Below the pieces are notes generated by a model. That model was given only the letters and a program-made list of their open reading frames with translations, did no database searches and was not told where the DNA came from. Position numbers and translations under genes: made by a program. Shown one piece after another: positions 24,072 to 48,777 of a stretch of 49,438 nt of DNA (position 1 is its first letter; the number at the start of each line of letters is the position of its first letter). This stretch comes from a virus. The stretch covers positions 1-49,438 of the IMG/VR virus record IMGVR_UViG_3300033153_005635. One strand, 5' to 3'.

Positions 24072-24479
24072 ATGGGAACAGCAACGACAAGTTTTTCAAG
24101 GTTTACAGGGCGCATTCATTGTGCGTCTAGTCCCCCAGCAAATCCAGCTACGGGAGATGAGTGGTTTGATACAGACACGAAGACGAAGTTTGTGTATAAT
24201 GGTAGTGCTTGGGTTGGTGGGACAGTATTGTCTACATCGACCTCGACCAGTACTTCAAGCACAAGCACGAGTACTTCGAGCACAAGTACGAGTACTTCTA
24301 CCAGTACTTCGACCTCGACCAGTACTTCGAGTACGAGTACTTCGAGCACGAGTACAAGTACATCAAGTACGAGTACAAGTACCTCGAGCACGAGTACTTC
24401 GAGTACGAGCACAAGTACATCAAGTACAAGTACATCAAGTACAAGTACATCAAGCACATCGACTTCGACCACCGAGTAG
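24072..24479 (+). CDS. Virion surface protein with Ser/Thr tract (81 residues of tract)
   Basis: 135 residues. Residues 1-53 form a small domain (SPPANPATGDEWFDTDTKTK, then VYNGSAWVGG) seen at the start of many phage fibre and collar proteins. From 24231 to 24473 nearly every codon is Ser or Thr. No other domain follows. It would present a flexible mucin-like arm on the head or collar. It has two shorter paralogues at 24841 and 25059. Confidence 0.75.
   Translation: MGTATTSFSRFTGRIHCASSPPANPATGDEWFDTDTKTKFVYNGSAWVGGTVLSTSTSTSTSSTSTSTSSTSTSTSTSTSTSTSTSSTSTSSTSTSTSSTSTSTSSTSTSSTSTSTSSTSTSSTSTSSTSTSTTE
24231..24473 (+). repeat. Ser/Thr-coding tract 1
   Basis: 81 consecutive codons, almost all Ser or Thr, mostly alternating TS with occasional SS. 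Both codon families of Ser (AGN and TCN) are mixed. Confidence 0.9.
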
Positions 24480-24538
24480 TAATTGGGGGGCAGGAATAGG
24501 CAGGTTATTTCTGCCCTGTATTGGGGAAGGAGCAAATT

Positions 24539-24832
24539 ATGGCAACAGTAGTTCCGAGAGCAGTAGAAGCAGTTTGTATTTCGGGCGATAAGAAGCTCAA
24601 GAGTAGTGCTGGCGTGGTCTACGCTGTAGTTCTAGCCGCAGGCAGTGCGGCCGACGCTACTTTAATCCTTTATGACAACACGGCAGCAGGGGGTGAACGG
24701 GAACTTTATTTGGCGGCGGCACAGAAGACTAGTATATCCTTCTGTCCTTCCAATGTAGGTATCAAGTTCAATACGGGGATTTACGCCGACATCTCTGGAG
24801 CAGGAGCTTACGCCACGATTATTTACGAGTAG
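24539..24832 (+). CDS. Small beta-rich virion protein
   Basis: 97 residues from ATG 24539, preceded by GGGGAAGGAGC. Ala/Gly-rich with alternating hydrophobics (VVYAVVLAAGSAADATLILY, then GIKFNTGIYADISGAGAYA), a beta-sandwich pattern common in small phage head or fibre-associated proteins. It lies between two Ser/Thr-tailed paralogues, so a structural role is likely. Confidence 0.6.
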   Translation: MATVVPRAVEAVCISGDKKLKSSAGVVYAVVLAAGSAADATLILYDNTAAGGERELYLAAAQKTSISFCPSNVGIKFNTGIYADISGAGAYATIIYE

Positions 24833-24840
24833 GAGAAATT

Positions 24841-25053
24841 ATGGGAACCAACTTCACAGCAGTAAAGGGAAGGATTCCTTGTAGTTCGAGTCCTCCGTCG
24901 GGAGTGGCTAGGAATGGGGAAATGTGGTTCGATATTGACACGAAGCGTCAGGCTGTTTACTATGACGGTGCGTGGTATATGCAGGGGTCAGCAATGACCA
25001 CAAGTACAAGTACATCTAGTACGAGTACTTCGACATCGACATCGACGACATAA
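24841..25053 (+). CDS. Short Ser/Thr-tailed virion protein, paralogue 2
   Basis: 70 residues: the N-terminal WFDIDTKRQAVYYDGAWY domain shared with 24072 and 25059, then a tail of about 18 Ser/Thr residues. TAGGAGAAATT precedes the start. Probably assembles with its paralogues. Confidence 0.7.
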   Translation: MGTNFTAVKGRIPCSSSPPSGVARNGEMWFDIDTKRQAVYYDGAWYMQGSAMTTSTSTSSTSTSTSTSTT

Positions 25054-25058
25054 GTTAT

Positions 25059-25277
25059 ATGGCATACACACAAGGAACACACTTTTCTGATTATAGGGGT
25101 AAGATACCTGTTTCGGCGAGTCCGCCGACGACTGATGTACAGGATGGCGACCGTTGGTTTGATAGTGATACCAATAATGAGGGAGTTTACTACGATGGTC
25201 AGTGGTATATGACCTCGGCAATGACCACATCGACATCGACATCGACATCAACATCTACATCGACTTCGACAACATAG
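25059..25277 (+). CDS. Short Ser/Thr-tailed virion protein, paralogue 3
   Basis: 72 residues with DGDRWFDSDTNNEGVYYDGQ in the shared N-terminal domain and a C-terminal tail of about 17 Ser/Thr residues (TSTSTS pattern). It follows paralogue 2 by five bases. Tandem duplication is the simplest origin. Confidence 0.7.
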   Translation: MAYTQGTHFSDYRGKIPVSASPPTTDVQDGDRWFDSDTNNEGVYYDGQWYMTSAMTTSTSTSTSTSTSTSTT

Positions 25278-25292
25278 CCGAAAGGAGGCATC

Positions 25293-25646: not shown

Positions 25647-25661
25647 AATGAAGGAGGCATC

Positions 25662-26987
25662 TTGAAAAAGAAAATAGCAATTTTTACAACTTTTAGTTCA
25701 GCTTCGCCAGCATATTCCCTCAACCGAGTTACCCAAGACCAGTTAAAAATGTTAGTAGATAACGGCTACGAGCCGAATGTTATCGTTGCTGAGGGTTTCA
25801 AGCCGATTGAGATGTACGCCCACGAGAAGGTAACGGTAAAAGAAATTCCTAATGTCCCCGTTTCCAATGAAGCCCGAATGGACAATACTTTCAATAAGGA
25901 TGTAATGATGATTGAGCAAGCCCTTACTGAGCACCTTAAGGGCGTTGATGTTTGTTTTACCCACGATATTATTTACCAAGCCGCCGCGTTGAAACACCAG
26001 ATTGCGGCTAAAAGGGTTGCCAAAACCTACCCAAACCTCCTATGGCTTCATTGGGTTCACTCGGCAACCCCCCCAGCCAGACTAGCCAACCTAACTCAAC
26101 ACTTCACAGACGAGTTTTCAAAGGAAATCCAAAGACCATTCCCCCACAGCTTTATTTGCTACCCGAACAAGTGGTTTGCTCCAGCAGTCGCCGACTCTTT
26201 TAACATAAACAGAAACAAAGTGAAGCACGTCCCCCACGCTACCGATTTCTGCCGCTTCAAGAAGTATGAGGAGGATACAATTAATCTAATCAAGAAAAAG
26301 AAGCTCTTGGAAGCAGACGCCATTGCCGTTTACCCAATTAGACTGGACAGGGGCAAGCAGGTTCAGTTCGTTCTCAAGGTAATGGCAATGCTCAAGACTC
26401 TCGGCAAAAGTGTTCGGGTCATTATCGTTGACTTCCACTCAACAGGCGGGGACAAAGTTATCTACCGAGACGACCTAAGGCAGATAGGGATTACTTGGGG
26501 GTTAGACGAGCGGGAGCTAACCTTTACCTCGGAGTTTCTACCCCAATGGCACCTAGAGGTTCCGTGGGAGGTAGTCTCCGACCTAATGGACTTGTCGAAC
26601 TGTTTTATATTCCCCTCGGCCTCGGAGAGCTACTCCCTAATTACTCAGGAGTCGGGGCTATCCAGACAGGTACAAGTCTTGAACTTTAATCTAACGCCTT
26701 TGATGAGTATTTTTGGAGAGTACCCCTACTACAAGAAGTTTGGGGAGGCGGCAGTTGACCCGCTAAATAATGAGGAGGCGGGGAATTGTGAAACTAAGTA
26801 CGATAACGAGCGGATGTTTATGCTCCAAGTCGCAGGACTCTTAAACTACGAATTGGAGAATAATCGGGTACTGGCTCAGGAACGGAAGCTAAGAAAGTAC
26901 AGGTCGCTGGATTATGTTTTTAAGACATACATCGAACCCCTTTTCTTCTACGAGGAATTAAAGAAGGAACCAATCGAGCAAAGATGA
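25662..26987 (+). CDS. GT4-like glycosyltransferase
   Basis: 441 residues, TTG start after GAAGGAGG. The N-terminal Rossmann half begins KKIAIFTTFSSASPAYSLNR and contains VDVCFTHDIIYQ and LWLHWVHS. The C-terminal half has VKHVPHATDF, AVYPIRLDRGKQVQ and FIFPSASESYSLITQESG, the donor-binding E-x7-E-type region of GT-B enzymes. It would transfer a sugar from an activated nucleotide donor in the cytoplasm. First gene of the modification cluster, four-base overlap with the next. Confidence 0.8.
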   Translation: MKKKIAIFTTFSSASPAYSLNRVTQDQLKMLVDNGYEPNVIVAEGFKPIEMYAHEKVTVKEIPNVPVSNEARMDNTFNKDVMMIEQALTEHLKGVDVCFTHDIIYQAAALKHQIAAKRVAKTYPNLLWLHWVHSATPPARLANLTQHFTDEFSKEIQRPFPHSFICYPNKWFAPAVADSFNINRNKVKHVPHATDFCRFKKYEEDTINLIKKKKLLEADAIAVYPIRLDRGKQVQFVLKVMAMLKTLGKSVRVIIVDFHSTGGDKVIYRDDLRQIGITWGLDERELTFTSEFLPQWHLEVPWEVVSDLMDLSNCFIFPSASESYSLITQESGLSRQVQVLNFNLTPLMSIFGEYPYYKKFGEAAVDPLNNEEAGNCETKYDNERMFMLQVAGLLNYELENNRVLAQERKLRKYRSLDYVFKTYIEPLFFYEELKKEPIEQR

Positions 26988-27769
26988 GAAAAATGGCTGA
27001 TGCTTGTATCATTGGCTACGGTGCTTTAGGAAAAAGAACTGCCAAAGTTTTTAACATTAAGAAGTACTACGATAGGGCGGGGTCGAATATAACCCTCAAA
27101 GACGCCGCCAAATGCCGTTTCATCTTTATCAGTCTTCCAACACCAACTATCAAAGAAGATTGTTTTACGGACGATATTGAGGCGATAGTCAAGCAACTCT
27201 CCCAGATTAGCCGAACCCCAATTCTAGTTATCAGGTCAACTGTCAAACCAGGGTTTACCAAGCACCTCTGTAGCAAGTATTTCGTTGAGGCAGTACACAA
27301 TCCTTCTTTTTCAGATGAAGGTAGGGGGGGTCTTGATATGGAGAAAGAGCCCGACCTTATCGTCATTGGGGGGGAGAATAAGCAGGTAGTTGCCGCAGTA
27401 GCCGACCTCTGGAAAGGCCGCTCAAAGACAGGAGAATTAACCCCAATGTTCTTGACAGACTCGGTTACATCAGAAACAATCAAGTATGTATTTAATGCCT
27501 TCTACGCACTCAAAGTAGTTTACTTCAATGAGATTTACGACATTTGCCAGAGGAACGGGGCTAGTTACAAGACTATCAGAGAAGCCATAAAGGAGAACAG
27601 TCGAATTGGAAACACCCACTCGTTGATTTTCCACAAGGGGGGTCGGGGGGCAGGTGGAAAATGTTTGAAAAAAGATTTAGAATTGTTTGCGTACTACACG
27701 GGGTCGAAACTGCTAAAGCGGGCAGTTACCATCAATCAAGGATTAATAGATGCCACTAATAAGAAGTAG
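26984..27769 (+). CDS. UDP-glucose/GDP-mannose dehydrogenase-like protein, short form
   Basis: 261 residues. NAD-binding start IIGYGALGKRTAK, FISLPTPT and RSTVKPG, a substrate helix region, and GAGGKCLKKD, which keeps the catalytic Cys and Lys of the family. The protein ends after the central helix (about 260 instead of 400 or more residues) and lacks the C-terminal UDP-binding domain. It may oxidise a nucleotide sugar to a uronate or be an altered enzyme. It overlaps both neighbours. Confidence 0.75.
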   Translation: MRKMADACIIGYGALGKRTAKVFNIKKYYDRAGSNITLKDAAKCRFIFISLPTPTIKEDCFTDDIEAIVKQLSQISRTPILVIRSTVKPGFTKHLCSKYFVEAVHNPSFSDEGRGGLDMEKEPDLIVIGGENKQVVAAVADLWKGRSKTGELTPMFLTDSVTSETIKYVFNAFYALKVVYFNEIYDICQRNGASYKTIREAIKENSRIGNTHSLIFHKGGRGAGGKCLKKDLELFAYYTGSKLLKRAVTINQGLIDATNKK

Positions 27770-29663
27770 TTTTTCCATTGTTATGCCGATTCACGGAGAC
27801 CGTGATGGCGAACGGGCACTCCGTAGCGTTTACTTCCAAAACTACCCACGAGATTTGGTAGAAACTATCGTTATCGAGGACGAGGATTCTCAACTTACTA
27901 AAAAGTACCCCGCCAGCAAGATTATCCACCACAAGGAAAGACTGGAGCGGGCTATCTCCCGAACTGAGGGGATGGCGGCGGCTACAAACGATTGGGTTAT
28001 ATGGCTTGATAGTATAACCGCCGAGAGAAGAATACCCGTAAAGATAGATGGCCGTATGGATGTTCTCTCTATTGAGGAGCTCTTTAATTTATATCCCTAT
28101 TCTCATTTTAACGGGAAAGAGGTTTGTTATCCAACGGACTTGGAGACCCTTAGTTTAGCTTCTAAACAGGATGATTATTGGAAAGTCCCTGCCTTTTGGA
28201 CTAAGGTAACAAAAATTATTCGTCATAGAACGGACAAGAATGTTTACAGGGTAACTCAGAAGTATGGACAGGTTGAGGTAACGGAAGACCACTCTTTAGT
28301 CAAATTAGAGGGGGGAGAGCTAGTCAAGTCTAAGTGGTATGAAACTGTTGATAATCCATTCGTGACCGTTGGCGGGGTAGAACGGGGTAAATTAGAGTCC
28401 ATAGACCTATGGGAGTACCTGTCTGAGGTTTCTGGGCTTATATCCGATGAAAAGACCGTTCGTTTTGATAACCATCAAAGGGGACAGGACAAAATCTTTC
28501 TAAAGCGACAGTTAGGTGGAGATTCTCTGCTTTCGCTCTGCCGAATCTTAGGACTTTACATTTCGGAGGGGTCGGTTTCAAAACGCCCGAAGAGTAAGAA
28601 CTTCGATATAGCACTTCAGGAAAAGGAAATTCTTCAGGGAATTGAAAAGGATTTTCAGGAACTTACCAACGCTACCTTTTCTTACTGTGCCGATAAGAAG
28701 GGGACATACGCCACCGTTTGGCGGTTGCGTAATTATTCTAACTTGCTCACGGCGGCTTTTCCCTATCTGTGCGGGAAGGACAGTAGAAGTAAGAAAATTC
28801 CGCAGTTTATTTACAATCTTGATAAGAAATACCAAGCGGAGTTCTTGAAATATCTTGTTATTGGGGATGGTTCGAGGAAAAAGGGAAGTGCTCCCGATGG
28901 TGGTAAGAGGAGTAAGAAGTTCCTCAAAAACTATTTTGTCTACACAACGGTTTCGTTGGGTTTGGCCAGCGGCCTGTGCTTTTTGTTACGGCAACTTGGG
29001 ATAGATTTCTCCGTTGGTTATAGAGAGTCCAAAAAGAGTTGGGGTATTAGTACCAGGCCGCTTAAGACGAACAGGCGGGGGTTTAAGACATTTATCTCTC
29101 CTTTAGAGAAGGCAAGTAGGTATGTATATGACCTTTCGGTGGAGTCTGACTCGCATACATTTGTTGATAGCCTCGGTTTGGTAGCTCTCCATAATTCAGA
29201 TGACGAGCTTATCTCCTCAACTCTCTACAACCTCGACTACTGGATTAGAAGGTGTCCTGGCTACAAAATCTTTCACTACGGGGGAATTGTTTACTGGGAA
29301 CCTAAGACTTTCGATGAACACAACTACGAACCGAGAACGACCATTAGACCAACCCCCGATATTCCTGATGGGGAGCCGGGGATGGGGTACTTTGAAACGG
29401 GTAAGGTAGCAACTGGACACTTCGTCTTTAGAAGGGAAATCTTTGAGGAGTTAGGCGGTATGCCCCAGCAGATGAGCCCCTATGTTTTCGCTGACGAATG
29501 TGCCAGAGAATTTCCTGAGTTTAGGGAGATGATGGGTCGGAGAAAGGTTGATACACTGGGAAATCCTTGGGGTTGCGACTTCTTTTATTTTTACAAAATC
29601 ACACGCAAATACAAATCCAAAGCATTGCCACTTAATCTATATTTACAACATGTTAGGAGGTGA
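27750..29663 (+). CDS. GT2 glycosyltransferase interrupted by an intein
   Basis: 637 residues as translated; 242 after removal of intein residues 88-482. The extein begins FSIVMPIHGDRDGERALRSV, the GT-A opening of family 2. The joined sequence reads IWLD-SDDELISS, restoring the DxDD metal/nucleotide-sugar motif split by the intein. The remainder includes ETGKVATGHFVFRREIFEE, the usual acceptor-side region. Activity thus needs splicing. It overlaps the preceding gene by 20 bases within the modification operon. Confidence 0.85.
   Translation: MPLIRSSFSIVMPIHGDRDGERALRSVYFQNYPRDLVETIVIEDEDSQLTKKYPASKIIHHKERLERAISRTEGMAAATNDWVIWLDSITAERRIPVKIDGRMDVLSIEELFNLYPYSHFNGKEVCYPTDLETLSLASKQDDYWKVPAFWTKVTKIIRHRTDKNVYRVTQKYGQVEVTEDHSLVKLEGGELVKSKWYETVDNPFVTVGGVERGKLESIDLWEYLSEVSGLISDEKTVRFDNHQRGQDKIFLKRQLGGDSLLSLCRILGLYISEGSVSKRPKSKNFDIALQEKEILQGIEKDFQELTNATFSYCADKKGTYATVWRLRNYSNLLTAAFPYLCGKDSRSKKIPQFIYNLDKKYQAEFLKYLVIGDGSRKKGSAPDGGKRSKKFLKNYFVYTTVSLGLASGLCFLLRQLGIDFSVGYRESKKSWGISTRPLKTNRRGFKTFISPLEKASRYVYDLSVESDSHTFVDSLGLVALHNSDDELISSTLYNLDYWIRRCPGYKIFHYGGIVYWEPKTFDEHNYEPRTTIRPTPDIPDGEPGMGYFETGKVATGHFVFRREIFEELGGMPQQMSPYVFADECAREFPEFREMMGRRKVDTLGNPWGCDFFYFYKITRKYKSKALPLNLYLQHVRR
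28011..29195 (+). mobile_element. LAGLIDADG intein in the GT2 active site
   Basis: 395 codons. The first residue is Ser88. VTEDHSLV (177-184) holds the TxxH motif of the splicing domain. The endonuclease motifs are LCRILGLYISEG (263-274) and FLKYLVIGDG (365-374). The end has VYDLSVE...HTFV...LVALHN, with penultimate His, terminal Asn and Ser as first C-extein residue. All residues for self-splicing are present and the acidic endonuclease residues look intact. Confidence 0.92.
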
Positions 29664-29667
29664 GTGT

Positions 29668-29886
29668 ATGGCTAAAAGAAAAGATGTATTACCAAAAGTT
29701 TGTTCTCGGTGTGGAAACGATTTAATGACGGGACAGACGACTATCCATTTACCGTTTGAGAAGAGGTATCTTGTCTTGTGTGGGGTTTGTCATCGTGGCT
29801 TGGGTTTTCCAGTCGGGCTCTACGGCGGGAAGTCCCCAACTGCTGAGGAATGGAAAAAGTTTTGGGATGAGGAGGTTAAGAAGTGA
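29668..29886 (+). CDS. Small zinc-ribbon protein in the modification cluster
   Basis: 72 residues from ATG 29668 with TAGGAGGTGAG upstream. CSRCG and CGVC form a four-Cys zinc site; the C-terminus is charged. It overlaps the next gene (GTGA). Role unknown. Confidence 0.7.
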   Translation: MAKRKDVLPKVCSRCGNDLMTGQTTIHLPFEKRYLVLCGVCHRGLGFPVGLYGGKSPTAEEWKKFWDEEVKK

Positions 29887-30638
29887 ACCTACGAGAGAAA
29901 AAGGGCAATCCAATCAATACATTTATCGTGCCCTTCGTATTTCCCGATTATATTGAGGGGTGTGTTAAGAGTATCTGGGAACATTGCGACCCAGAAAAGC
30001 ACCGACTAATCTTAATCGACAATACCGAAAAGGGTGAACTCTACCCCAAACTCCAAGACAGGGCACATCTCTACATTCGTTCCTACAGAAACCTTGGTTG
30101 TTCCAAGTCTTGGAATATGGGGATTCACCTCTCAAAAACGAAATACTGGTCGATTATGGGAGACGATACGAGGATTATTCACGAGAACTGGTGGCCAGAA
30201 TTACAAGCACATATGGAAGCAAATGATATGAAAATTGGTTTCTGTGACCCCTGCCACCTAACCCAACCAGAGAAGGTCAGGGGGAATTTGGAACCACCTG
30301 AGTTTACCGAGGAGATGTGGGAGGAAACTAAACATAATAGCGGCGATATGGCAGGTAGGTTTAACTGTCTGGTCATCAGAAAAGACCTCTACCATACTTT
30401 AGCTTACCAAGACGAGGATGGGCACTTTCTCTTAAACGAGGATTTGTATCCTTGCTACTGGGTTGACCGAGATTTTCATTTCAGGATGAAGGAATTGGAC
30501 ATTCACAAGAGCGGACTAAAGTTTCCTGTTTGGCATATGAGAGCAATGACGACCCAATCAGGTAAAATGCCACTACACGACAAAGGCCCGACCAATCCCG
30601 ATGTCGCCGAATGTCCAAAGGTTAGAAGATGTCTATGA
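29883..30638 (+). CDS. GT2-like glycosyltransferase
   Basis: 251 residues, GTG start with GAGGAGG upstream. NTFIVPFVFPDYIEGCVKSI opens the GT-A fold, LILIDNTEKG follows, and YWSIMGDDTRI carries the acidic metal motif. WVDRDFHFRM lies in the acceptor half. Probable sugar transfer to the virion or to an activated acceptor. Coupled to its neighbours by short overlaps. Confidence 0.78.
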   Translation: MNLREKKGNPINTFIVPFVFPDYIEGCVKSIWEHCDPEKHRLILIDNTEKGELYPKLQDRAHLYIRSYRNLGCSKSWNMGIHLSKTKYWSIMGDDTRIIHENWWPELQAHMEANDMKIGFCDPCHLTQPEKVRGNLEPPEFTEEMWEETKHNSGDMAGRFNCLVIRKDLYHTLAYQDEDGHFLLNEDLYPCYWVDRDFHFRMKELDIHKSGLKFPVWHMRAMTTQSGKMPLHDKGPTNPDVAECPKVRRCL

Positions 30639-31096
30639 CACCCGAAGAAGACCTAAAAGTACTAGAAGAAGCGGCTTCCAAGATTAAAAACGGGGTAATC
30701 GTGGAGACGGGGACTTGTGCTGGAGAATCAGCCAACCGAATGGCTAAAGCGTCCCCAACCTCAACGGTACACACAATCGACATCAGAAGCCGTGACCCAA
30801 AGCTGGAGAAGAATGTTCTTTCTTATATTGGAGACTCAAAGGAGATAGTAAAACGCTGGAAAACGCCGATTGACCTGCTTTTCATCGATGGCGGCCACGA
30901 CTACGAAACGGTCGAATCCGACTTCCTCGGTTTCGGGAGATGGGTGAGACCCGGAAGTAAGGTATTCTTCCACGATTACGATAGCGGTAGGAACGCTGAT
31001 GTTACTAGATTTATTAACGACGCTATCGAGTTTTACCAAGACTTTAAGCCATTAGGAGCAATGGGTAAGATGTTGTTTGCTTTTGAGGCATTGTAG
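30629..31096 (+). CDS. SAM-dependent methyltransferase (class I, Methyltransf_24 type)
   Basis: 155 residues. IVETGTCAGESANRMAK is motif I (SAM loop), TVHTIDIRSRD motif II, and IDLLFIDGGHDYETVESDF the family-typical IDGGH motif with catalytic-type residues. Such enzymes often methylate sugars or small molecules. The start ATG lies 10 bases inside the preceding gene. Confidence 0.8.
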   Translation: MSMTPEEDLKVLEEAASKIKNGVIVETGTCAGESANRMAKASPTSTVHTIDIRSRDPKLEKNVLSYIGDSKEIVKRWKTPIDLLFIDGGHDYETVESDFLGFGRWVRPGSKVFFHDYDSGRNADVTRFINDAIEFYQDFKPLGAMGKMLFAFEAL

Positions 31097-31107: not shown

Positions 31108-31323
31108 ATGAAAAAGGATAGTACCTTTACTATTGAAATAAAGCTAATCGATAACAGAACTGGTAAGGAATATGCCAACGGAACTAAGGTTAGTCGTCGA
31201 ATGTTAGCTGACTTGGGAAGTGAGGAGGCTGGTAAATATATCCTCCGAAAGATTGATATATTAGAGAAGGGATTGCTTAACAGATTGGCTAAGATTCTTG
31301 AGGAGGAAAATGAAACCGACTGA
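31108..31323 (+). CDS. Hypothetical 71-residue protein in the modification cluster
   Basis: Starts with a beta strand (STFTIEIKLIDNRTG) and ends in a charged helix (DILEKGLLNRLAKILEEENE). The start follows AGGGGGTGGG. It overlaps the next gene by 14 bases. Function unknown. Confidence 0.6.
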   Translation: MKKDSTFTIEIKLIDNRTGKEYANGTKVSRRMLADLGSEEAGKYILRKIDILEKGLLNRLAKILEEENETD

Positions 31324-39073: not shown

Positions 39074-39076
39074 GTT

Positions 39077-42000
39077 ATGGACATAAGTAAACTTTCACAG
39101 GAAGTAAAAGACAAGTACCAAGTCTTAGATAACGCTCTCGGTCGGGTAGTTAAACCTGATTGGAAAGATAAAATTGAAATTGAGCTTGGTGACAGCAAAG
39201 ACCCCTCTAAATTCCATCCGCAGGTAAAAATTCAACGCTGGGATAACGAGGTTAACGCCTCGTTTCGTTTAATCGACGATGGGCCGAAAATTTTCCAAAC
39301 CGAAGGTGAGAAGGTTAAGCTGGTCGGCGCCAAGAAAGAGATTCATTTTTACGAACTCCCCCCTAGTGAGGAATTAAGAGAGGGTGGGTATGAGTTTGAA
39401 GTTATCCTCAAAGAGAAACCAACAACTAACAAATTAGAGTTCACGATTGAAACAAAAGGTCTTGGATTCCATTACCAGCGGGAGATAAGTGATGAGGTGG
39501 CTCAAGAAGCTCTTGATAGGTTCGTAGAACGCAAACAGAATACAAAAATACCACAAGAAATTAGGGATACTTTTCCGTCCACCCTCTTAGAAGCGAAGCG
39601 GCGGATAAGGCCAGCTCGCATTCTCGGCTCTTACGCTGTTTATCACAGCACAAAGCAAGGAAACTATGAACTATTGGGTGGCAAGAATTACAAATTTGGC
39701 AAGGTTTTTCACATTTACCGACCAAGAATAGAAGACGCTGAGGGTAATTGGGTTTGGGGAGAACTCAGCATTGATAAAAAGGCCGGTGTTTTAACAGTAA
39801 CCATCCCCCAAGATTTTCTTGATAACGCAGTTTACCCCATAAGGCACGCCGCAGGTTTAACCTTTGGTCACACAGGTAAGGGGGGGTCTAATAACAACGG
39901 GGGTGCTGATGTCAGGGCGCTTAAGGCGTCCCCAGCTTCTGACGGGACAGCAACCAAGATTACTGCTTGGATGTATAACGGAGGTTTCTGGTGTGGGGAT
40001 GGAATAGTATACGGGCTTTACGAGGATGACGGGGATTTAATAGAGACTACGGGTATGGGAAACCCTGATAATGGTGACTTTGTTGGCGGGGCTTTGGAAT
40101 ATGAGATGGATTTGGAGACAGAGCAGGGAGTCCTTTCCGCAAATCACTACTATTTGGCGTGGTGGTTAAAGGTATCCTGCGGTGGGGCGGTTTACTTTGA
40201 TGGTATAGAGACAACGCCAGAGGAGGCTTATTGGTATGACTGGCCTACTGCGACCGAATGGTCTGATCTGAAGGAGTCTCCAACTTGGTCTGCTGACCCA
40301 TTAGCAGAGGGATGGGTTTATAGATGGTCTATCTACTGCACCTATACAGCAGGAGCAGGAACTACTACATCCACTTCAAGTTCTACCTCCACATCAACCA
40401 GTACGTCTTCGACCAGTACTTCAACATCTAGTACGAGTACCTCTACTAGCTCTACAAGTACTTCCACATCGAGTTCTACAAGTACCAGTTCTACAAGCAC
40501 ATCGACTAGCTCAACATCCACAAGTACGAGTACTTCGAGTACTTCAACCTCAACAAGCTCAACATCTACGAGTACGAGCTCGACATCAACTAGCACAAGT
40601 ACATCCTCAACTTCTACATCGACAAGTACAACGCTGGAAACTACTACCTCTACCAGTACCTCAACCAGTACCAGTACATCGAGTACAAGTACCTCAACCT
40701 CAAGCACGAGTACTTCGACTTCAACCTCATCAACGTCAACAAGCACGAGTACATCGAGTACCAGTACTAGTTCTACTTCAACTTCGAGCACCAGTACGAG
40801 TACTTCTACTAGCACCAGCTCTACATCGACAAGCTCAACCTCTACGTCAACATCAACAAGTAGTACTTCGACGAGTACATCTACTTCTACTAGCTCGACC
40901 TCGACGAGTAGTACATCAACCAGTACCTCTAGTACGAGCACGTCTACATCAACATCGTCGACATCGACCTCTACATCAACAAGTACCAGTTCCACTTCGA
41001 CAAGTACTTCTAGTACAAGCACTAGTTCAACGTCGACCTCCACATCGACATCCTCAACCTCGACTTCAACTAGTACTTCTACAAGCAGTACTTCGACATC
41101 AACATCTACTAGTTCGACATCAACCAGTAGTACGAGTACCAGTACCTCAACTTCCAGCACGAGTACGTCAAGCAGTACCTCAACGAGTACCAGTAGTACT
41201 TCAACCTCGACATCGAGTACTAGTACCTCAACTTCGACCAGCTCTACGTCTACCTCCACGAGTACTTCTACCTCGACGTCAAGTACAAGTACTAGCTCAA
41301 GCACTTCCACGCAGACGACGACTAGTACTAGTTCTACGTCAACTAGCACCAGTTCGACATCGACATCTACTAGCACGAGTACGAGTTCTACCTCAACCTC
41401 GACGAGTACCAGTTCGACTTCAACATCGAGTACTAGTACGAGTACATCCACGTCGACTTCGACATCAAGCACATCGACAAGTACCTCTACTAGCTCGACA
41501 TCGACCAGTACCTCGTCGACCTCAACCAGTACTAGCACGAGTACATCAACGTCGAGTACCAGTACATCAACTTCCAGTACCAGTACGAGCACGAGTTCCA
41601 CATCAACGTCGACATCAACCAGTACAAGTACTTCAAGTACCAGCACATCGACCTCTAGCACGAGTACGAGCACTTCGACAAGTTCTACTTCGACGTCAAC
41701 CTCAACTAGTACTTCGACCAGCAGTACCTCGACTTCAACATCGAGTACGTCAACATCCACCTCAACATCGACTTCGACAAGTAGCACTTCAACGAGTACT
41801 TCTACGTCAAGCACGAGTACATCTACCAGTAGCACGTCGACTTCTACTTCAACGAGTTCTACATCAACAAGTACCAGCTCTACGAGTACCTCTACATCGA
41901 CAAGTTCGACGTCGACCAGTACTTCGACAAGTACGTCGACAAGCTCGACCAGTACAAGTACGAGCACGAGTTCGACTAGCACATCAACATCAACTAGCTC

Positions 42001-42715
42001 AACTTCAACGAGTACTAGTACCTCGTCTACGAGTACTTCAACTAGCAGTACCTCGACATCAACCAGTTCAACGTCGACCAGTACCAGTACCAGCTCAACC
42101 AGTACATCGACTAGTAGTACATCGACCTCGACCTCATCGACCCTTACATCAACGAGTACCAGTACCTCGTCAACGTCAACAAGCACGAGTACATCAAGTA
42201 CCAGTACGAGCTCGACTTCAACCAGTACGAGTACCAGCTCGACATCTACCAGTACGAGTACTTCAACGTCGAGTACGTCCACTTCGACGAGCTCAACGTC
42301 AACATCTACTAGCACAAGTACAAGTACCTCGACCTCTAGTACTAGTACTTCGACGAGCAGTACTTCTACGAGCACGTCAACTAGCTCGACCTCGACGTCA
42401 ACAAGTACCAGTACGAGCACATCGTCAACTTCTACGTCAACGAGTTCAACCTCGACCAGCTCCACCAGTACCAGCACTAGCACGAGTACCTCTTCGACGA
42501 GTACCAGTTCTACTTCGACAAGTACCAGTACCAGTTCGTCTACCAGCACGAGTACGACTTCGACCTCTACCAGTAGCACTTCAACGAGTACTTCTACGTC
42601 GAGTACATTGCCGTTTAGAGCTAAGATTGGGGGTGTCGGGGTAGAACGGATGGGTATTGATACAATCAGGGAGGATATGCCCCGAATTAAGAGTGTCGGA
42701 GTCAAGAGGATATAA
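39077..42715 (+). CDS. Giant mucin-like virion protein
   Basis: 1212 residues from ATG 39077; an upstream in-frame ATG at 39011 lies inside the promoter. Residues about 25-130 (DKIEIELGDSKDP, then RWDNEVN and VILKEKP) and about 180-430 (SYAVYHS, HIYRPRI, PIRHAAGLTFGH and a beta-rich domain with WGELSIDKK) are shared with the next gene. Residues about 429-1177 are an almost pure Ser/Thr tract of about 749 residues, interrupted by TTLETTT, TQTTT and TLTST. A 30-residue basic C-terminal domain (GGVGVERMGIDTIRED) follows. Probably a virion fibre or bristle; function inferred. Confidence 0.8.
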   Translation: MDISKLSQEVKDKYQVLDNALGRVVKPDWKDKIEIELGDSKDPSKFHPQVKIQRWDNEVNASFRLIDDGPKIFQTEGEKVKLVGAKKEIHFYELPPSEELREGGYEFEVILKEKPTTNKLEFTIETKGLGFHYQREISDEVAQEALDRFVERKQNTKIPQEIRDTFPSTLLEAKRRIRPARILGSYAVYHSTKQGNYELLGGKNYKFGKVFHIYRPRIEDAEGNWVWGELSIDKKAGVLTVTIPQDFLDNAVYPIRHAAGLTFGHTGKGGSNNNGGADVRALKASPASDGTATKITAWMYNGGFWCGDGIVYGLYEDDGDLIETTGMGNPDNGDFVGGALEYEMDLETEQGVLSANHYYLAWWLKVSCGGAVYFDGIETTPEEAYWYDWPTATEWSDLKESPTWSADPLAEGWVYRWSIYCTYTAGAGTTTSTSSSTSTSTSTSSTSTSTSSTSTSTSSTSTSTSSSTSTSSTSTSTSSTSTSTSTSSTSTSTSSTSTSTSSTSTSTSTSSTSTSTSTTLETTTSTSTSTSTSTSSTSTSTSSTSTSTSTSSTSTSTSTSSTSTSSTSTSSTSTSTSTSTSSTSTSSTSTSTSTSSTSTSTSTSTSSTSTSSTSTSTSSTSTSTSTSSTSTSTSTSTSSTSTSTSSTSTSSTSTSTSTSSTSTSTSTSTSSTSTSTSTSSTSTSSTSTSTSTSSTSTSSSTSTSTSSTSTSTSSTSTSTSTSSTSTSTSTSTSTSSTSTSSSTSTQTTTSTSSTSTSTSSTSTSTSTSTSSTSTSTSTSSTSTSSTSTSTSTSTSTSSTSTSTSTSSTSTSTSSTSTSTSTSTSTSSTSTSTSSTSTSTSSTSTSTSTSTSTSSTSTSTSSTSTSTSTSSTSTSTSTSTSTSSTSTSTSSTSTSTSTSTSTSSTSTSTSTSSTSTSTSSTSTSTSTSSTSTSTSSTSTSTSTSSTSTSTSTSTSTSSTSTSTSTSSTSTSTSTSSTSTSTSTSSTSTSTSSTSTSTSSTSTSTSTSSTSTSTSSTSTSTSSTLTSTSTSTSSTSTSTSTSSTSTSSTSTSTSTSSTSTSTSTSTSSTSTSTSSTSTSTSTSTSTSTSSTSTSTSSTSTSTSTSSTSTSTSTSTSTSSTSTSTSSTSTSSTSTSTSTSTSSTSTSSTSTSTSTSSSTSTSTTSTSTSSTSTSTSTSSTLPFRAKIGGVGVERMGIDTIREDMPRIKSVGVKRI
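40361..42607 (+). repeat. Ser/Thr-coding tract 2, about 749 codons
   Basis: Nearly every codon is Ser or Thr, in runs of alternating Thr-Ser punctuated by Ser-Ser. All six Ser and all four Thr codons are used and shuffled, so protein composition is conserved without long identical DNA repeats. Confidence 0.92.
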
Positions 42716-42716: not shown

Positions 42717-45221
42717 ATGGCTATGCCAAAGTACGAACAATTAACTAACGCCTACAAATTTACTCCCAAAGACGATTGGCGGGACAAGATTGAGTTCGAG
42801 CTCGGTGATAGTAAAGACCCCGCTAAATTCCAACCACAGTTTAAGTTAATGCGGTGGGACAACGAGGTAAATTGTAGTGTCCGCCTCAAAGACTTTGACA
42901 ACTACACCCTTTCTACAGAAGGCGACAAGGTAAAACTCCAGAATGGTAAAAGAGAGGTTCACCTTTACGAGGTAGAAAACGGATTTGAGTTCGAGGTAAT
43001 TCTCAAAGAAAAACCCCCGACTAACAAGATTGAGTTTTCACTTAATGCGAAAGATGTAAGGTTTCTCTATCAGCCGACACTAAGAGAGAGGTTGGGGGAG
43101 TTTGCTGTAGAACAAAGAGAGATAGAGGGAATAGTTAAAAATCAAAGGTTTGGGTCTCTAGTTGACATTGGTGGAGGAACTGGTTGGTTTGCTAAAAGGT
43201 TTGATGGAACCTGTATTGATTACTCGGAAGAAGCGTACTCTAAAAGAGTTACCGAGAACTACATCAAGGCAGATGTTAGATTGGGTGTGCCGGAGGTAGG
43301 GGACAAACAGTATGACTTGGCGGTCGGAATTGGCCTTCTAAGGTATTTCCAAAACGAAAAAGACATAGAAGAAGCCATTAAAGAAGTGGCGAGAATATCC
43401 AAGAAAGGTATCTTCTTCGATGGTGCTGGCTTTGAGCACTTTGAAGATACACTCCCCCCAGATAGATGTTCTACCGATTGGGATAAGTCAAAAAGGGATT
43501 TCTGGTTAGAGAGGTTTGCCCTTTATGCCCCAGATTATCCAGCAGAAATTTACGATATTTCCTATTCTAAGACTCCAGAAAACGTAGAGGGTTCTTATGC
43601 GGTTTATCACCAACAGAGAAGGCCAGTAAACTGGGTCGGGGGGAAATTATACAAAGTAGGCAAGGTTGGTCATATCTATAGACCAAGGGTCGTAGATAGT
43701 GTTGGCAGTTGGGTTTGGAGCAAACTGGAGATAAAAGATAATACATTAACAGCGACTATTCCCCAAGAGTTTCTTGATAATGCCGTTTATCCCGTGAGAC
43801 ATGCGGCGGGCTTGACATTTGGATACAGCGGCGATGGTGCGGCATCCGTGATTGTTTCCGAGGATAACAGGGCGGCATTTGATAATGCTGCGGGGGCGGC
43901 TGGAACAGGGGTTAGTATGTCTGCGTATATTGAGCCAAGCACAACCGATGTAAACTGTCAAATGTATATCTATGACAGTAGTCTTAATAAAGTAACTAAT
44001 GGAGTTACTGACGAAAATGCTACTCCTAGTGAAACGCTACATTGGGAAACACAAAATTTTACCTCTGCTCCAACATTTACATCACAAACTTACCATCTAG
44101 CTTTTTGGTGTGAGGGTGGGGGGCCGCCATACGATCCGTACATTGATGTTTATGGTGATGACGATACAGGAAATGATTGCTGGTATGACGGGACTGGAAC
44201 ATATAAAACATGGCCAGCCCAGCTAACTAAGTCAACGACATACTCTGATAAAATTCTTTCCATCTACTGCACCTATGAAGAAGCAGCAGGAACTACTACT
44301 TCCACTTCAAGTTCTACAAGTACCAGTACTTCGTCAACCAGTACGTCTACGAGCAGTACCTCGACCTCCACCTCAACGAGTTCAACCAGCACGAGTACTA
44401 GCTCAACATCAACCAGTACCAGCACATCGTCAACGTCTACTTCATCGTCAACTTCGACCAGCTCAACTTCAACCTCAACAAGTACGAGTTCAACATCAAC
44501 TTCTACGTCGAGCACATCCACCTCAACCTCGACTAGCAGTACTTCTACATCAACTAGCTCCACATCGACATCGACTTCAACGAGCACAACACTAGAAACT
44601 ACCACCTCGACCAGTACCTCAACGAGTACTTCTACATCAACGAGTTCTACTAGCACCAGTACGAGTTCGACTTCAACAAGCACTTCCACGAGTTCAACCT
44701 CAACATCGACAAGTTCGACAAGCACAAGCACGAGTTCAACCAGTACCTCTACCAGTACAAGTTCAACAGTTACATCAACAAGTACCTCAACCTCTAGTAC
44801 GAGTTCGTCTACCTCGACCAGTACGAGTACGAGTACATCATCGACCTCTACTTCTACGAGTAGTACATCGACCAGCTCCAGTACTTCGACATCGAGTACG
44901 AGTACCTCAACCAGCACAAGCTCCACCTCAACAAGTACGAGTAGCACCAGTACCAGCTCAACAACAGAAACGACCTCAACCAGTACAAGTTCGACCAGTA
45001 CCTCTACAAGCACATCCACGTCAACATCGAGTACCTCGACCTCAACATCTAGCACTTCAACCAGTACTAGCTCAACATCGACTTCTAGTACTAGTACCTC
45101 AACAAGCACCAGTTCAACGATACTAGACTACGCAATAATGAAGTCTGTTTCAGAACAAAAGATGAGAATACAAACAGTAACCGCAGAAACACCGACAATA
45201 AGAGAAGTGATTGCCGAGTGA
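42717..45221 (+). CDS. Mucin-like virion protein with an internal methyltransferase-like domain
   Basis: 834 residues. Residues 1-120 and about 290-525 match the paralogue at 39077. Between them, residues about 125-288 form a class I SAM methyltransferase-like domain: SLVDIGGGTGWFAKRFDG (motif I), TCIDYSEEAYSKRV (II), YDLAVGIGLLRYFQ (IV) and RISKKGIFFDG. The paralogue has only about 45 unrelated residues there. A Ser/Thr tract of about 276 residues (44292-45119) and a 34-residue C-terminal domain follow. The start follows TAATATGG. Confidence 0.8.
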   Translation: MAMPKYEQLTNAYKFTPKDDWRDKIEFELGDSKDPAKFQPQFKLMRWDNEVNCSVRLKDFDNYTLSTEGDKVKLQNGKREVHLYEVENGFEFEVILKEKPPTNKIEFSLNAKDVRFLYQPTLRERLGEFAVEQREIEGIVKNQRFGSLVDIGGGTGWFAKRFDGTCIDYSEEAYSKRVTENYIKADVRLGVPEVGDKQYDLAVGIGLLRYFQNEKDIEEAIKEVARISKKGIFFDGAGFEHFEDTLPPDRCSTDWDKSKRDFWLERFALYAPDYPAEIYDISYSKTPENVEGSYAVYHQQRRPVNWVGGKLYKVGKVGHIYRPRVVDSVGSWVWSKLEIKDNTLTATIPQEFLDNAVYPVRHAAGLTFGYSGDGAASVIVSEDNRAAFDNAAGAAGTGVSMSAYIEPSTTDVNCQMYIYDSSLNKVTNGVTDENATPSETLHWETQNFTSAPTFTSQTYHLAFWCEGGGPPYDPYIDVYGDDDTGNDCWYDGTGTYKTWPAQLTKSTTYSDKILSIYCTYEEAAGTTTSTSSSTSTSTSSTSTSTSSTSTSTSTSSTSTSTSSTSTSTSTSSTSTSSSTSTSSTSTSTSTSSTSTSTSSTSTSTSTSSTSTSTSSTSTSTSTSTTLETTTSTSTSTSTSTSTSSTSTSTSSTSTSTSTSSTSTSTSSTSTSTSSTSTSTSTSSTVTSTSTSTSSTSSSTSTSTSTSTSSTSTSTSSTSTSSSTSTSSTSTSTSTSSTSTSTSSTSTSSTTETTSTSTSSTSTSTSTSTSTSSTSTSTSSTSTSTSSTSTSSTSTSTSTSSTILDYAIMKSVSEQKMRIQTVTAETPTIREVIAE
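44292..45119 (+). repeat. Ser/Thr-coding tract 3, about 276 codons
   Basis: Same composition and codon shuffling as tract 2, including the shared interruption TTLETTT; others are STVTST and TTETT. Confidence 0.9.
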
Positions 45222-45223
45222 TA

Positions 45224-45238: not shown

Positions 45239-46441
45239 GTGATAATCAAGATTGATAATCCAATCCTTTCCGATAACGAAAAGACTTGGCTGACCCAAGC
45301 TGTTGCTGATGGTACGACTGCTTTAACAGTAAAATCCAATGAGGGATTTTCAGCTGACGACTACATCGTCATTGGAGAGGTTGGAGAAGAAGAATCAGAA
45401 GCAGTAAAGATTTCCTCAACAACTGGCGACCATACCATTACCCTCGCCGTAGCCGTCAAACACGGCCATACTCAAGGAACTCCAATTTACTTTACAAGAT
45501 GGGATAAGTACTCCCTAGAGGTTAAACCTACTGGTGGCGACTATTCAGCAGTAGCAGGAATGCCCGTAGATATTGAGTGGGACTCCGAGTTCTCCGAACA
45601 TATTTACAGCGGGGCGACTACCGACAGTTACCGATTTAGATTTTACAATTCCCAGACGGCGGCATATTCTAGCTATTCTCCAATCGTAGCGGGTACGGGT
45701 TATACCCGTAAATCAGCCCGCTATATGACCAACAATGTTTTGAAGATAGCCAACGACCCCGACGCTAAGGTTCTCAATAGAGATGAAATTAGATACCAAT
45801 TCAACGCCGCTCAGGATTATGTCTCGGCAATGAACAACCGCTGGTGGTTTCTCTGGAAAGAAGGAGACGCAATTTCCTCGGTAGCCAGTACTGAACAGTA
45901 CGGATTCCTAGAGGACTGGAGTCATCTAAAAGCAATTATTTGTCACTTTGACGATGGGACTGATAACATCAAGTATCGGTTGGAGAGACTTCCTAAAGTC
46001 GAGTATGAGTACGAAACAAGAGACCAAGACCGAGACGATGACGATGATATAAAATACTTCTGTATTTACCAACCCGACAGTACCTACAGCTACGGCTCGT
46101 TCAAAGTCCAACCAACGCCAGAACACGCCTACCACACCTTCTACCCCCTCTACTACAAGAAGATGGCCGACCTCGCAGACGATAATGACGAGACGGATAT
46201 TCCTATTCCCCAGATACTAGAGTACTGGGCTTTGTCCCAAATTGAGAAAGCTAGGGGAAACCAGAACAAGTCCGAGATGTATATGAAAAACTTTGAGGGT
46301 AGCGTTGCCCTCCTCAAACAAGACCAGAAGAAGTACGCTGGCCCCAAGACATTCCTAGCTTATCGGGGGAGAAAGGTAATGCGGCGACTCTACGGGGATA
46401 GACGAACATTCTCGGACGAAGAGTTAGCTAAATACTGGTGA
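45239..46441 (+). CDS. Head-tail adaptor / tail-tube-A-like protein
   Basis: 400 residues. Residues about 1-150 are beta-rich, with TALTVKSNEGFSADDYIVIG and an Ig-like part (DSYRFRFYNSQ). Residues about 155-400 begin YMTNNVLKIANDPDAKVLNR and contain QFNAAQDYVSAMNNRWWFLW and ILEYWALSQIEKARGNQNKS, which resemble podovirus adaptor proteins (T7 gp11 / P22 gp4 role). It should sit under the portal and hold the nozzle. Its start may be GTG 45239 without leader. Confidence 0.7.
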   Translation: MIIKIDNPILSDNEKTWLTQAVADGTTALTVKSNEGFSADDYIVIGEVGEEESEAVKISSTTGDHTITLAVAVKHGHTQGTPIYFTRWDKYSLEVKPTGGDYSAVAGMPVDIEWDSEFSEHIYSGATTDSYRFRFYNSQTAAYSSYSPIVAGTGYTRKSARYMTNNVLKIANDPDAKVLNRDEIRYQFNAAQDYVSAMNNRWWFLWKEGDAISSVASTEQYGFLEDWSHLKAIICHFDDGTDNIKYRLERLPKVEYEYETRDQDRDDDDDIKYFCIYQPDSTYSYGSFKVQPTPEHAYHTFYPLYYKKMADLADDNDETDIPIPQILEYWALSQIEKARGNQNKSEMYMKNFEGSVALLKQDQKKYAGPKTFLAYRGRKVMRRLYGDRRTFSDEELAKYW

Positions 46442-46444
46442 TGT

Positions 46445-47503
46445 ATGCCTCAGAAGAAGTCTTTACAAATAACCGACCTCTCAGGGGGGATGGACACCAA
46501 GACCCAGCCCCTTCTTTTACCCGACAATAAATCCGCTTTAATCATCAACGGAGACCTCGGAAGAGTCTTCGGTTCTATCTCGGCTAGGGGGGGATACGAG
46601 CTACAGGGAGCGGCAATGACTCCTGAAAGCGATGTACTAGGAATGGGCAACCTCGCCAAACCCGATGGAACCCACAAGATAATCGGAGTTTGTGGGAGTG
46701 ACTGCTATCTCTACAATACAATCAACGAAACTTGGACAGCCCAGAACCAAGGATTGACTGCGGCGGCTAAAGCAGAATTTGCTACCTACCTCAACAAGCT
46801 CTTTATGGTTAACTACTCCAACGATACCAGAGCTTTTGACGGGGAAAACTGGTCAACCTCTACTGACCTAGACGGGGCACCGAGAGCCAAGTACCTACAG
46901 GTTTACAAGAATAGACTTTACCTAGCTAACTGTGTTATCCAGCCAAATCCCTATCCTTCGAGGGTTTACTACTCATCCCTACCAACCGATGGTTCCATTA
47001 CTTGGGACACGACTGAAAACACGGGGGATTACTTCGAGGTAGATACCGATGATAACGATATGATTAGGGGGCTAGGGACGAACTCTAACCGTCTTTTAAT
47101 CTTTAAGGAGTACTCTTTACATACTTGGGATGGGACTTCCCGTATGAGGGTTCTAGGGGCTCCAGGGACAAACAGCCAACGGTCGGTAGTCAACATTAAC
47201 GAGTGGACATATTACTTTAACCGCAGGGGGGTTCACAGGTTTAACGGGAGGGTTGTCGAGTACATCTCCGAACCCGTCCAACCGTACATTGCGGGCGTTA
47301 GTCCTGCTTCTTCCTACAAGGTTTGTGGGGGGAGCAAGAATTTACACTACCTACTCTACATCGGGGAGGTAAAGAATACCGAGGAAGACATCGAGGAAAG
47401 ACGGGTGCTGCTAGATTTAGATACGGTTAACAGTACTTGGACAGTCAACATTTTACAGACTAGACCCCAAGTATTTCTAAGTTGTCCGACAGGAGCATTT
47501 TAA
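46445..47503 (+). CDS. Nozzle / tail-tube-B-like protein, N-terminal portion
   Basis: 352 residues. LSGGMDTKTQPLLLPDNKSA and NGDLGRVFGSISARGGYE, a series of repeated beta-propeller-like blades (HKIIGVCGSDCYLYN, then KLFMVNYSNDTRAFDG, then RLLIFKEYSLHTWDG, then HRFNGRVVEY), match podovirus nozzle/stabilisation proteins. It ends at LSCPTGAF, short for the family. The expected C-terminal part is found at the end of the next gene, suggesting the gene is split. Confidence 0.75.
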   Translation: MPQKKSLQITDLSGGMDTKTQPLLLPDNKSALIINGDLGRVFGSISARGGYELQGAAMTPESDVLGMGNLAKPDGTHKIIGVCGSDCYLYNTINETWTAQNQGLTAAAKAEFATYLNKLFMVNYSNDTRAFDGENWSTSTDLDGAPRAKYLQVYKNRLYLANCVIQPNPYPSRVYYSSLPTDGSITWDTTENTGDYFEVDTDDNDMIRGLGTNSNRLLIFKEYSLHTWDGTSRMRVLGAPGTNSQRSVVNINEWTYYFNRRGVHRFNGRVVEYISEPVQPYIAGVSPASSYKVCGGSKNLHYLLYIGEVKNTEEDIEERRVLLDLDTVNSTWTVNILQTRPQVFLSCPTGAF

Positions 47504-48777
47504 TGGCCGATACAGGATTTAAGAGTCCAACAGCAACAGGAGGAACCTACAACAACTGGGTAGACCCAGGTAATGCCTACAGTAGCAATGATACCTACGC
47601 AACAGCAGACCGTACTAATGGCTACCCCGCCCAAGACTACTACGATTTTACTCTGGAAGTCCCTGATGGGGCTACAATCGATGGAATCGAAGTAGCTGTC
47701 GAAGGATATGTTAGTGGCACAACTACGGGGGGCACTCGGGTTCGGTTATCTTGGAATGGAGGAACCTCCGAAACGAGTAATAAAACCGCGGATTTGACCG
47801 ATTCTGAGACAACTCATACCTTTGGGGAGGCAACCGATACTTGGGGGAGGACTTGGTCATCTGGCGAACTTGCCAATAGCAACTTCAGAGTAATTTGTGA
47901 TTGTACGGATAGCACACCCGTTTACTACTTTGACCATATCCAAGTCAAGGTTTATTATACGATGGCTACAACTACCTCGACCTCAAGTTCTACCTCGACC
48001 AGTACCAGTACAAGCTCTACCTCTACATCAACCTCGTCAACATCAACGAGTACCAGCAGTACTAGCACTAGCTCGACTTCTACTTCGAGTACTAGTACCT
48101 CAACTTCGACCAGTAGTACGCTAACAACAACAAGTACTAGCTCAACCAGTACCAGTACCAGCTCGACTTCGACCAGCAGTACTTCCACATCGACAAGTTC
48201 GACATCAACCTCAACGAGTTCTACCTCAACGAGTTCGACAAGTACCAGCACCAGCTCTACTAGCACTTCGACATCGACCAGCAGTACCGTAACGAGTACC
48301 AGCACTAGTAGTACATCCACTAGTTCGACATCGACTTCAACCAGCTCCAGTACCTCGTCAACACTACCCTACGAGTTTTCAAATGTTAGGGAGCTGTACT
48401 TTGGGGATACGCTAGGCAAGGCATACCGTTACGGAGAGAACTACGATGACGATGGAGCAGGAATTCCCCTAGAAATAGTTACTAAAGATTACTATCCGGG
48501 GGGGCCAGAAACTACCAATACTTTCCACAAGGTTATTGCCTACGCCAACCGCAGGTCGGGATTATCACTCTACTACCAACTTCTGGGTACGGGTTCTAAA
48601 ATCCAGCCGTGGCAATATCTAGGAAGGTTGAACGATGAAATCAACGAGTTCGATATTACCTTCGGGAAGAACCGAGCCAAGGGAATTAGGTTTAGGTTAC
48701 TTAGTAGCGGTACAGGAGTACCACCAATCTGGAAGGGAATGACGCTCATCTACACCCTCGAAGGGACAGAAGAATGA
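47503..48777 (+). CDS. Chimeric virion protein: beta domain, Ser/Thr tract and nozzle C-terminal domain
   Basis: 424 residues; ATG 47503 shares its A with the previous stop (TAATG). Residues 1-154 are a jelly-roll-like domain (DFTLEVPDGATIDGIEVAVE, HIQVKVYYT). Residues 156-287 are a Ser/Thr tract (47968-48363). Residues about 290-424 contain RELYFGDTLGKAYRYGE, EIVTKDYYPGGPE and GMTLIYTLEG, which look like the usual C-terminus of nozzle proteins. It probably stays in the tail tip complex and displays the tract there. Confidence 0.75.
   Translation: MADTGFKSPTATGGTYNNWVDPGNAYSSNDTYATADRTNGYPAQDYYDFTLEVPDGATIDGIEVAVEGYVSGTTTGGTRVRLSWNGGTSETSNKTADLTDSETTHTFGEATDTWGRTWSSGELANSNFRVICDCTDSTPVYYFDHIQVKVYYTMATTTSTSSSTSTSTSTSSTSTSTSSTSTSTSSTSTSSTSTSSTSTSTSTSSTLTTTSTSSTSTSTSSTSTSSTSTSTSSTSTSTSSTSTSSTSTSTSSTSTSTSTSSTVTSTSTSSTSTSSTSTSTSSSTSSTLPYEFSNVRELYFGDTLGKAYRYGENYDDDGAGIPLEIVTKDYYPGGPETTNTFHKVIAYANRRSGLSLYYQLLGTGSKIQPWQYLGRLNDEINEFDITFGKNRAKGIRFRLLSSGTGVPPIWKGMTLIYTLEGTEE
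47968..48363 (+). repeat. Ser/Thr-coding tract 4, about 132 codons
   Basis: Alternating Thr-Ser with Ser-Ser interruptions and shuffled codons; interruptions TLTTT and TVTST resemble those of tracts 2 and 3. Confidence 0.9.

Follow-up and report, generated by a model that had tools for sequence, protein, structure and literature searches.

We analyzed IMG/VR virus record IMGVR_UViG_3300033153_005635 over its whole stretch of 49,438 nucleotides (positions 1 to 49,438; the window). It comes from an uncultured, short-tailed, podovirus-like phage. Between 24072 and 48777, proteins with long, nearly pure Ser/Thr tracts accompany a 13.3-kb block of genes for glycosyltransferases, methyltransferases, a dehydrogenase, and a deacetylase. 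The block lies between small and giant Ser/Thr proteins, and all of the genes described below are on the + strand.

The six tracts have 81 (24231-24473), 18 (24997-25050), 17 (25224-25274), 749 (40361-42607), 276 (44292-45119), and 132 residues (47968-48363), in agreement with the approximate lengths given by an initial annotation of the DNA. Ser or Thr occupies 1,263 of their 1,273 residues (>99%), and Gly, Ala, Asn, and Gln hardly ever occur. Ser is encoded by all six of its codons, with both Ser codon boxes mixed, and Thr codon usage is nearly even. There are 323 AGY serine codons and no AGR codon. Only 10 residues have lost Ser/Thr, although 59% of single-base codon changes would leave the pair. 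For these reasons, we dismissed a chance origin of the tracts. The three large tracts contain about as many repeated 12- to 18-mers as a codon-shuffled null, and a few local duplications persist, mainly at 24-mer length. Local tandem duplication is also visible at 24321-24434. Because the codons have been mostly scrambled while Ser/Thr was kept at >99%, the tracts are old, not recent expansions, and are maintained by selection for hydroxyl residues. A 787-residue antisense open reading frame (ORF) over the 749-residue tract was rejected as a gene. It results from the Ser/Thr codons, since ACN, TCN, and AGY read there as Val, Asp/Glu, and Leu and never as a stop.

Three of the tracts end small, capsid-proximal proteins. 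Protein 1 (24072..24479) consists of an anchor of ~53 residues (GDEWFDTDT..YNGSAWVG) followed by the 81-residue tract, and its anchor weakly matches phrog_20787, a "virion structural protein" family. Proteins 2 (24841..25053) and 3 (25059..25277) carry the 18- and 17-residue tracts behind the same anchor, which is a conserved motif common to these small proteins. A further small protein is encoded between Ser/Thr proteins 1 and 2 (24539..24832). It has no family match, and a similar one follows the Ser/Thr gene in two relatives (L145 and L175).

The three large tracts are in proteins that we refer to as bristles, and their likely start sites were revised to 39032, 42717, and 47503. Bristle 1 (39032..42715) has a head of ~440 residues, the 749-residue stalk, and a 35-residue C-terminal tail. 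Its head gave a poor predicted structure, with a predicted local distance difference test score (pLDDT) of 46. A homologue of this head without a tract occurs in a phage with a different head module (L129, 5232-9941), where a radical-SAM-like gene and two GT2-like genes adjoin it. Bristle 2 (42717..45221) has a head homologous to that of bristle 1, the 276-residue stalk, and a short C-terminal tail. An S-adenosylmethionine (SAM) methyltransferase domain is inserted in its head (~43137-43409); it is the sixth in the locus and is absent from the homologous protein of relative G014. Bristle 3 (47503..48777) has a domain of ~150 residues, the 132-residue tract, and a C-terminal tail hub domain.

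The architecture of bristle 3 bears on where the tracts are displayed. Its last ~135 residues (297-431) correspond to residues ~358-504, the C-terminal part, of the relatives' hub protein, and the gene upstream (46445..47503; phrog_3287, tail hub/stabilization protein) encodes the N-terminal part, matching hub residues ~1-349. The two genes overlap as TAATG, with AGGAG upstream. In one relative (G082), a tract is located within the hub protein itself, and in six relatives the first ~59 residues of short Ser/Thr proteins resemble the hub N terminus. Because its tract is joined to the hub C-terminal region, at least the bristle 3 stalk should be on the virion, as part of the tail hub. The initial annotation called all of the tract proteins virion proteins. 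This stands for the hub-fused tract, and the position and anchor motif of the others suggest the same for them.

The enzyme block begins with a gene for a 442-residue glycosyltransferase, here called GT442 (25662..26987), the probable core enzyme of the pathway. GT442 is below the Pfam cut-off, but an AlphaFold2 model (pLDDT 83.8) has a GT-B fold, and a fold search returned only generic GT4 enzymes (MshA and BshA). The EX7E pair is invariant in 11 sequences. A GT442 profile had no match among the sequences of solved structures, and GT442, the only glycosyltransferase of the block that was compared, had none in 50,697 phage records. The next gene (26984..27769; PF00984 and PF03721) encodes a UDP-glucose/GDP-mannose dehydrogenase-like protein without the C-terminal domain, with a predicted role in UDP-sugar supply. 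This short form (~250 to 280 residues) keeps the nucleotide-binding motif and catalytic Cys, and it recurs in relatives.

The following GT2 glycosyltransferase gene (27750..29663) is interrupted at its DxD site. A 395-residue LAGLIDADG intein (28011-29195) splits the enzyme at the catalytic WLD/SDDE site and is absent in L175. There is also an apparent intein in the terminase gene of L145. Four more GT2 genes have PF00535 matches (29883..30638, 31298..32071, 32071..32976, and 38208..38984), and two other glycosyltransferase genes match PF13524 (Glyco_trans_1_2; 35305..36411) and PF00534 and PF13692 (GT4; 36619..37593). SAM methyltransferases are encoded at 30629..31096 and 32948..33529 (both Methyltransf_24), 33499..34107 and 34691..35308 (both Methyltransf_11), and 34104..34715 (Methyltransf_23, just below the cut-off). 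A NodB-type polysaccharide deacetylase (37580..38341; PF01522) has its DD and HxxxH motifs. No clear membrane segment was found in any cluster protein. Within the cluster, 29668-29886 encodes a small zinc-ribbon-like protein (CSRCGNDL...CGVCH) that has a homologue in L286.

Thus, the content of the block was annotated correctly from the start. Seven of its eight glycosyltransferase-like genes are above Pfam cut-offs, and the eighth is supported by the GT-B model and the EX7E pair. Pfam support extends to the nucleotide-sugar dehydrogenase, the deacetylase, and the five methyltransferases, four of them above the cut-off. All are codirectional with structural genes and lie inside the structural module. 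From 15.2 kb onward, the genes on the + strand run through the small terminase, TerL (17466), the portal (18976), the major capsid protein (MCP; 23112), the region described here, the tail adaptor (45239..46441; SU10_adaptor, PF24175), and the hub (46445). TerL, portal, adaptor, and hub were identified through protein families and MCP homology through tblastn. The first 114 bases of the record (1-114) are identical to the last 114 (49325-49438). Because this direct repeat is at both ends, the record is very probably a closed, complete genome of 49,324 bp. Its early region (6.1 to 15.2 kb) has only small ORFs, and no recognizable DNA polymerase was found, which is unusual for a closed genome of this size.

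To see how far the arrangement extends, a capsid profile search was used, which collected 68 related viral loci with capsid proteins 49 to 79% identical. We counted pure Ser/Thr tracts of at least 14 residues within 1.8 kb in loci whose sequence continues for 900 bp or more past the capsid gene. Such a tract was near the capsid gene in 49 of 52 loci. One of the other three has a 13-residue tract, and two have long Ser-Pro repeats. These two, L320 and L326, are close relatives with Ser-Pro repeats (SPSASPSSSASPS) in place of Ser/Thr tracts. Relatives differ in the order of Ser and Thr, and two have Ser-Pro instead, so what is conserved seems to be the content of hydroxyl groups and not any particular repeat. 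Of 33 loci with 5 kb or more downstream, 32 had GT442 and 29 had the short dehydrogenase. GT2 genes were found in 31 of 35 related records, and the four without one end within 3.6 kb of the capsid gene. The density of GT2 genes was 11.7 per 100 kb in relatives versus 0.36 in tract-free control contigs.

Eight relatives are on long contigs, three of them closed by end repeats, and their gene order is broadly common: MCP, small Ser/Thr proteins, GT442, dehydrogenase, GT2 enzymes, methyltransferases, deacetylase, giant Ser/Thr proteins, adaptor, and hub. All eight encode head-stalk-tail proteins. In the giant proteins, a variable head is followed by a stalk that usually opens with TTTST or TTTSS and, in most cases, by a short hydrophobic tail. 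The longest stalk has 1,562 Ser/Thr residues within one 1,606-residue protein (G033). Two of the heads are Laminin_G_3 lectin-like domains. Another is peptidase S24-like (Pfam; L394, G082:40399-47187), and by eye the stalk head of L371 (G010:17061-17996) resembles a SET domain, so enzyme-like domains may be displayed on stalks.

As an outgroup, we used ten complete phages with capsid proteins 22 to 39% identical or with a homologous head domain. None of the ten has a GT2 gene, and the longest Ser/Thr run was 14 residues in the 20 to 31 kb examined of each. Therefore, the co-occurrence of tracts and glycosyltransferase clusters predicted for related phages was found throughout the clade, with both missing from the outgroup. 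The combination of tract, adaptor, hub, and GT2 genes recurs in three contigs (G052, G072, and G077) whose capsids are different but whose adaptor and hub genes are related. For the search of viral contigs, a stricter codon-class pattern was used, because a permissive one returned mostly Thr-rich runs. In 84,980 cellular genomes there were 92 exact pattern matches. Among the loci followed up, there was one mixed Ser/Thr tract of at least 16 residues, a 32-residue tract in an adhesin-like bacterial protein (L255). The mixed tract style looks essentially viral.

The order of Ser and Thr has a rhythm within genomes. TT and SS steps vary widely in frequency from genome to genome but little among the tracts of one genome (within/total variance 0.19 versus 0.83 for shuffled labels; p=0.0002). 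In the genome described here, the frequency of TT steps is 0.016, compared to 0.20 under random order. In most genomes, tracts share about as many nucleotide words as expected after shuffling; there is a clear excess in G031 and a trace of one here. A common rhythm could come from a shared enzyme preference or from old copying between tracts.

We think it likely that the phage makes its own mucin-like glycoprotein bristles, with soluble phage enzymes that O-glycosylate Ser/Thr stalks on the capsid and tail. The glycosylation itself we infer from the acceptor-like tracts and the adjoining enzymes. In the host cytoplasm, the GT4-like GT442 and the GT2 enzymes would attach and extend sugars on Ser/Thr hydroxyls from nucleotide sugars, with initiation on Ser/Thr first and then extension by the GT2 enzymes. 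Direct cytoplasmic transfer from nucleotide sugars fits because no clear membrane segment was found in the cluster proteins. The dehydrogenase would supply an oxidized sugar (uronic or similar), and the methyltransferases and deacetylase would finish the glycan. Glycosylation would stiffen the stalks, and the decorated proteins would then assemble onto the capsid and tail. The resulting glycan brush would keep the variable heads, some of them lectin-like, off the particle surface. The benefit is the least certain part. The particle might adhere to surfaces or host glycans, or the virion might be shielded, and the initial annotation also named host-glycan mimicry as a possible role.

A further idea, which we offer only tentatively and regard as doubtful, is that each phage has its own glycan code. 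All stalks of a phage, whatever their head, would share a rhythm read by its own set of glycosyltransferases, and rhythm and enzymes would coevolve. Such a phage would carry a complete mucin system of its own, in which the acceptor pattern is specific to the lineage and the heads shown on the glycan stalks (lectin-like, methyltransferase, SET-like, or peptidase-like) can be exchanged.

Several points count against glycosylated bristles. These glycosyltransferase families do not reveal acceptor specificity, an NCBIfam search did not find initiating enzymes of the GtfA/GtfB type, and the clade is uncultured and known from sequence alone. The counts from related loci are not independent, because of common ancestry, and the association may reflect one or a few acquisitions. 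Copying of DNA between tracts in some genomes (G031) means that the rhythm may partly be copying history. No tract is present in L129 and L130, which do have the bristle 1 head and two GT2-like genes. The initial annotation proposed testing whether long Ser/Thr tracts go with glycosyltransferase clusters in phages generally. The link held inside the clade, but outside it the link is weak, with a GT2 gene in 11 of 21 tract contigs versus 4 of 26 controls (p=0.011). Without G052, G072, G077, and G076, which have four or five GT2 matches each, the counts are 7 of 17 versus 4 of 26 (p=0.08).

The strongest alternative is that the stalks are unmodified flexible spacers (entropic bristles) and that the glycosyltransferases modify other virion proteins. 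The Ser/Thr linker of the adhesin-like bacterial protein in L255, which has no phage glycosyltransferase cluster, would fit this, as would the 10 of 21 unrelated phage contigs that have Ser/Thr tracts but no GT2 gene. However, nearly pure Ser/Thr over 749 residues, or 1,562 in G033, with Gly, Ala, Asn, and Gln almost barred, exceeds what flexibility needs, and tracts and glycosyltransferase clusters are present or absent together in the clade. Therefore, we consider unmodified spacers unlikely.

Less probable still is that the cluster remodels a host surface polysaccharide, for superinfection exclusion or receptor change. Phage glycosyltransferases that alter host serotype are a known precedent, as described in PMC12619734. 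A deacetylase and methyltransferases would also suit polysaccharide editing. However, seroconversion enzymes are typically membrane proteins that work with lipid carriers, whereas the proteins encoded here lack clear membrane segments. The cluster is also inside the late structural module, and polysaccharide remodeling leaves the tracts unexplained. We see an even smaller chance that the glycosyltransferases act on modified bases of the phage DNA, for which there is also published precedent (glycosyltransferase-based DNA hypermodification, in work cited in PMC12619734). Their genes are among structural genes and next to the tracts, the early ORFs are small, and no base-modifying gene (e.g., thymidylate-synthase-like) was present among the scanned ORFs of the closed genome, the smallest ORFs not being scanned. 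Finally, we reject an origin of the tracts as repeat-expansion or assembly artifacts, or by selection as DNA rather than protein, despite local tandem duplication such as that at 24321-24434, because the large tracts have little k-mer excess over codon-shuffled sequence, use six Ser codons without AGR, keep the reading frame of conserved domains, and are found again in relatives sampled in many metagenomes.

If the stalks are glycosylated as proposed, viruses of microbes carry a full mucin-like system of acceptor, enzymes, and display. The large natural set of acceptor and glycosyltransferase pairs could then be used to study how Ser/Thr patterns are recognized by enzymes, and the cluster might serve as a cytoplasmic toolkit for O-glycoprotein production in bacteria. 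The system would also suggest, in a form open to test, how phages in the environment adhere to surfaces or withstand attack. Since the supporting data come from dozens of uncultured genomes, this would be a recurring strategy rather than the curiosity of one contig.

The initial annotation went too far in stating that no phage system of this form had been described. In mycobacteriophages, according to the passages of PMC12619734, PMC11256854, and PMC12691614 that cite Freeman et al. 2023, phage glycosyltransferases put shielding glycans on virion structural proteins, at the C termini of capsid and tail-tube subunits. The same passages place glycosyltransferase genes near the 3' genome end of the F1 phage Maravista. 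Therefore, the principle of phage-encoded virion glycosylation is not new. Both systems have phage-encoded glycosyltransferases (eight such genes here) and a virion protein as acceptor (here, by prediction, the tail hub tract). However, the phages described here are podovirus-like and not close relatives of mycobacteriophages, they have dedicated proteins whose long tracts are pure Ser/Thr, and their glycosyltransferase, methyltransferase, and deacetylase block is inside the structural operon. In the open-access literature, outside which most subscription journals lie, we found no description of phage Ser/Thr tract proteins beside glycosyltransferase clusters. Nor did we find there any account of dedicated stalk proteins of this kind, of their pairing across a clade with a large enzyme block in the structural operon, or of a genome-specific rhythm.

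Closer relatives are the Pam1-like podoviruses of the outgroup (Roseobacter CRP-901, Planktothrix Pag-Yong1, Pelagibacter HTVC023P, and Phage DSL-LC04), which have a homologous MCP and a similar arrangement of terminase, portal, adaptor, and annotated stabilization (hub) genes. However, those complete genomes have no GT2 gene, and there was no tract of more than 14 residues in the stretches examined.

In design, the bristles resemble eukaryotic mucins and yeast flocculins, in which a Ser/Thr-rich, heavily O-glycosylated stalk is combined with a lectin-like head and a terminal anchor. This is an analogy only, without homology and with different enzymes. The serine-rich repeat (SRR) glycoproteins of Gram-positive bacteria, with their accessory Sec loci, are another comparison. 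They have alternating-Ser repeats of very variable length that serve as a stalk for a binding region, and an adjacent cluster of 2 to 10 glycosyltransferases O-glycosylates them in the cytoplasm (PMC6973325). Like the streptococcal SRR adhesins, bristles 1 to 3 and the proteins of the long relatives have a head and a Ser/Thr stalk, with a lectin-like head in some. However, there was no GtfA/GtfB family match in NCBIfam, and GT442 is only generically GT4-like. The genes of the closed genome that were scanned with Pfam include no SecA2, SecY2, or Asp, the bristle sequences have no LPXTG, and the product is predicted to join the virion rather than be secreted. Because GtfA/GtfB, accessory Sec, and LPXTG are missing, the system is not a member of the SRR class, but it would work in the way that SRR adhesins or mucins do.

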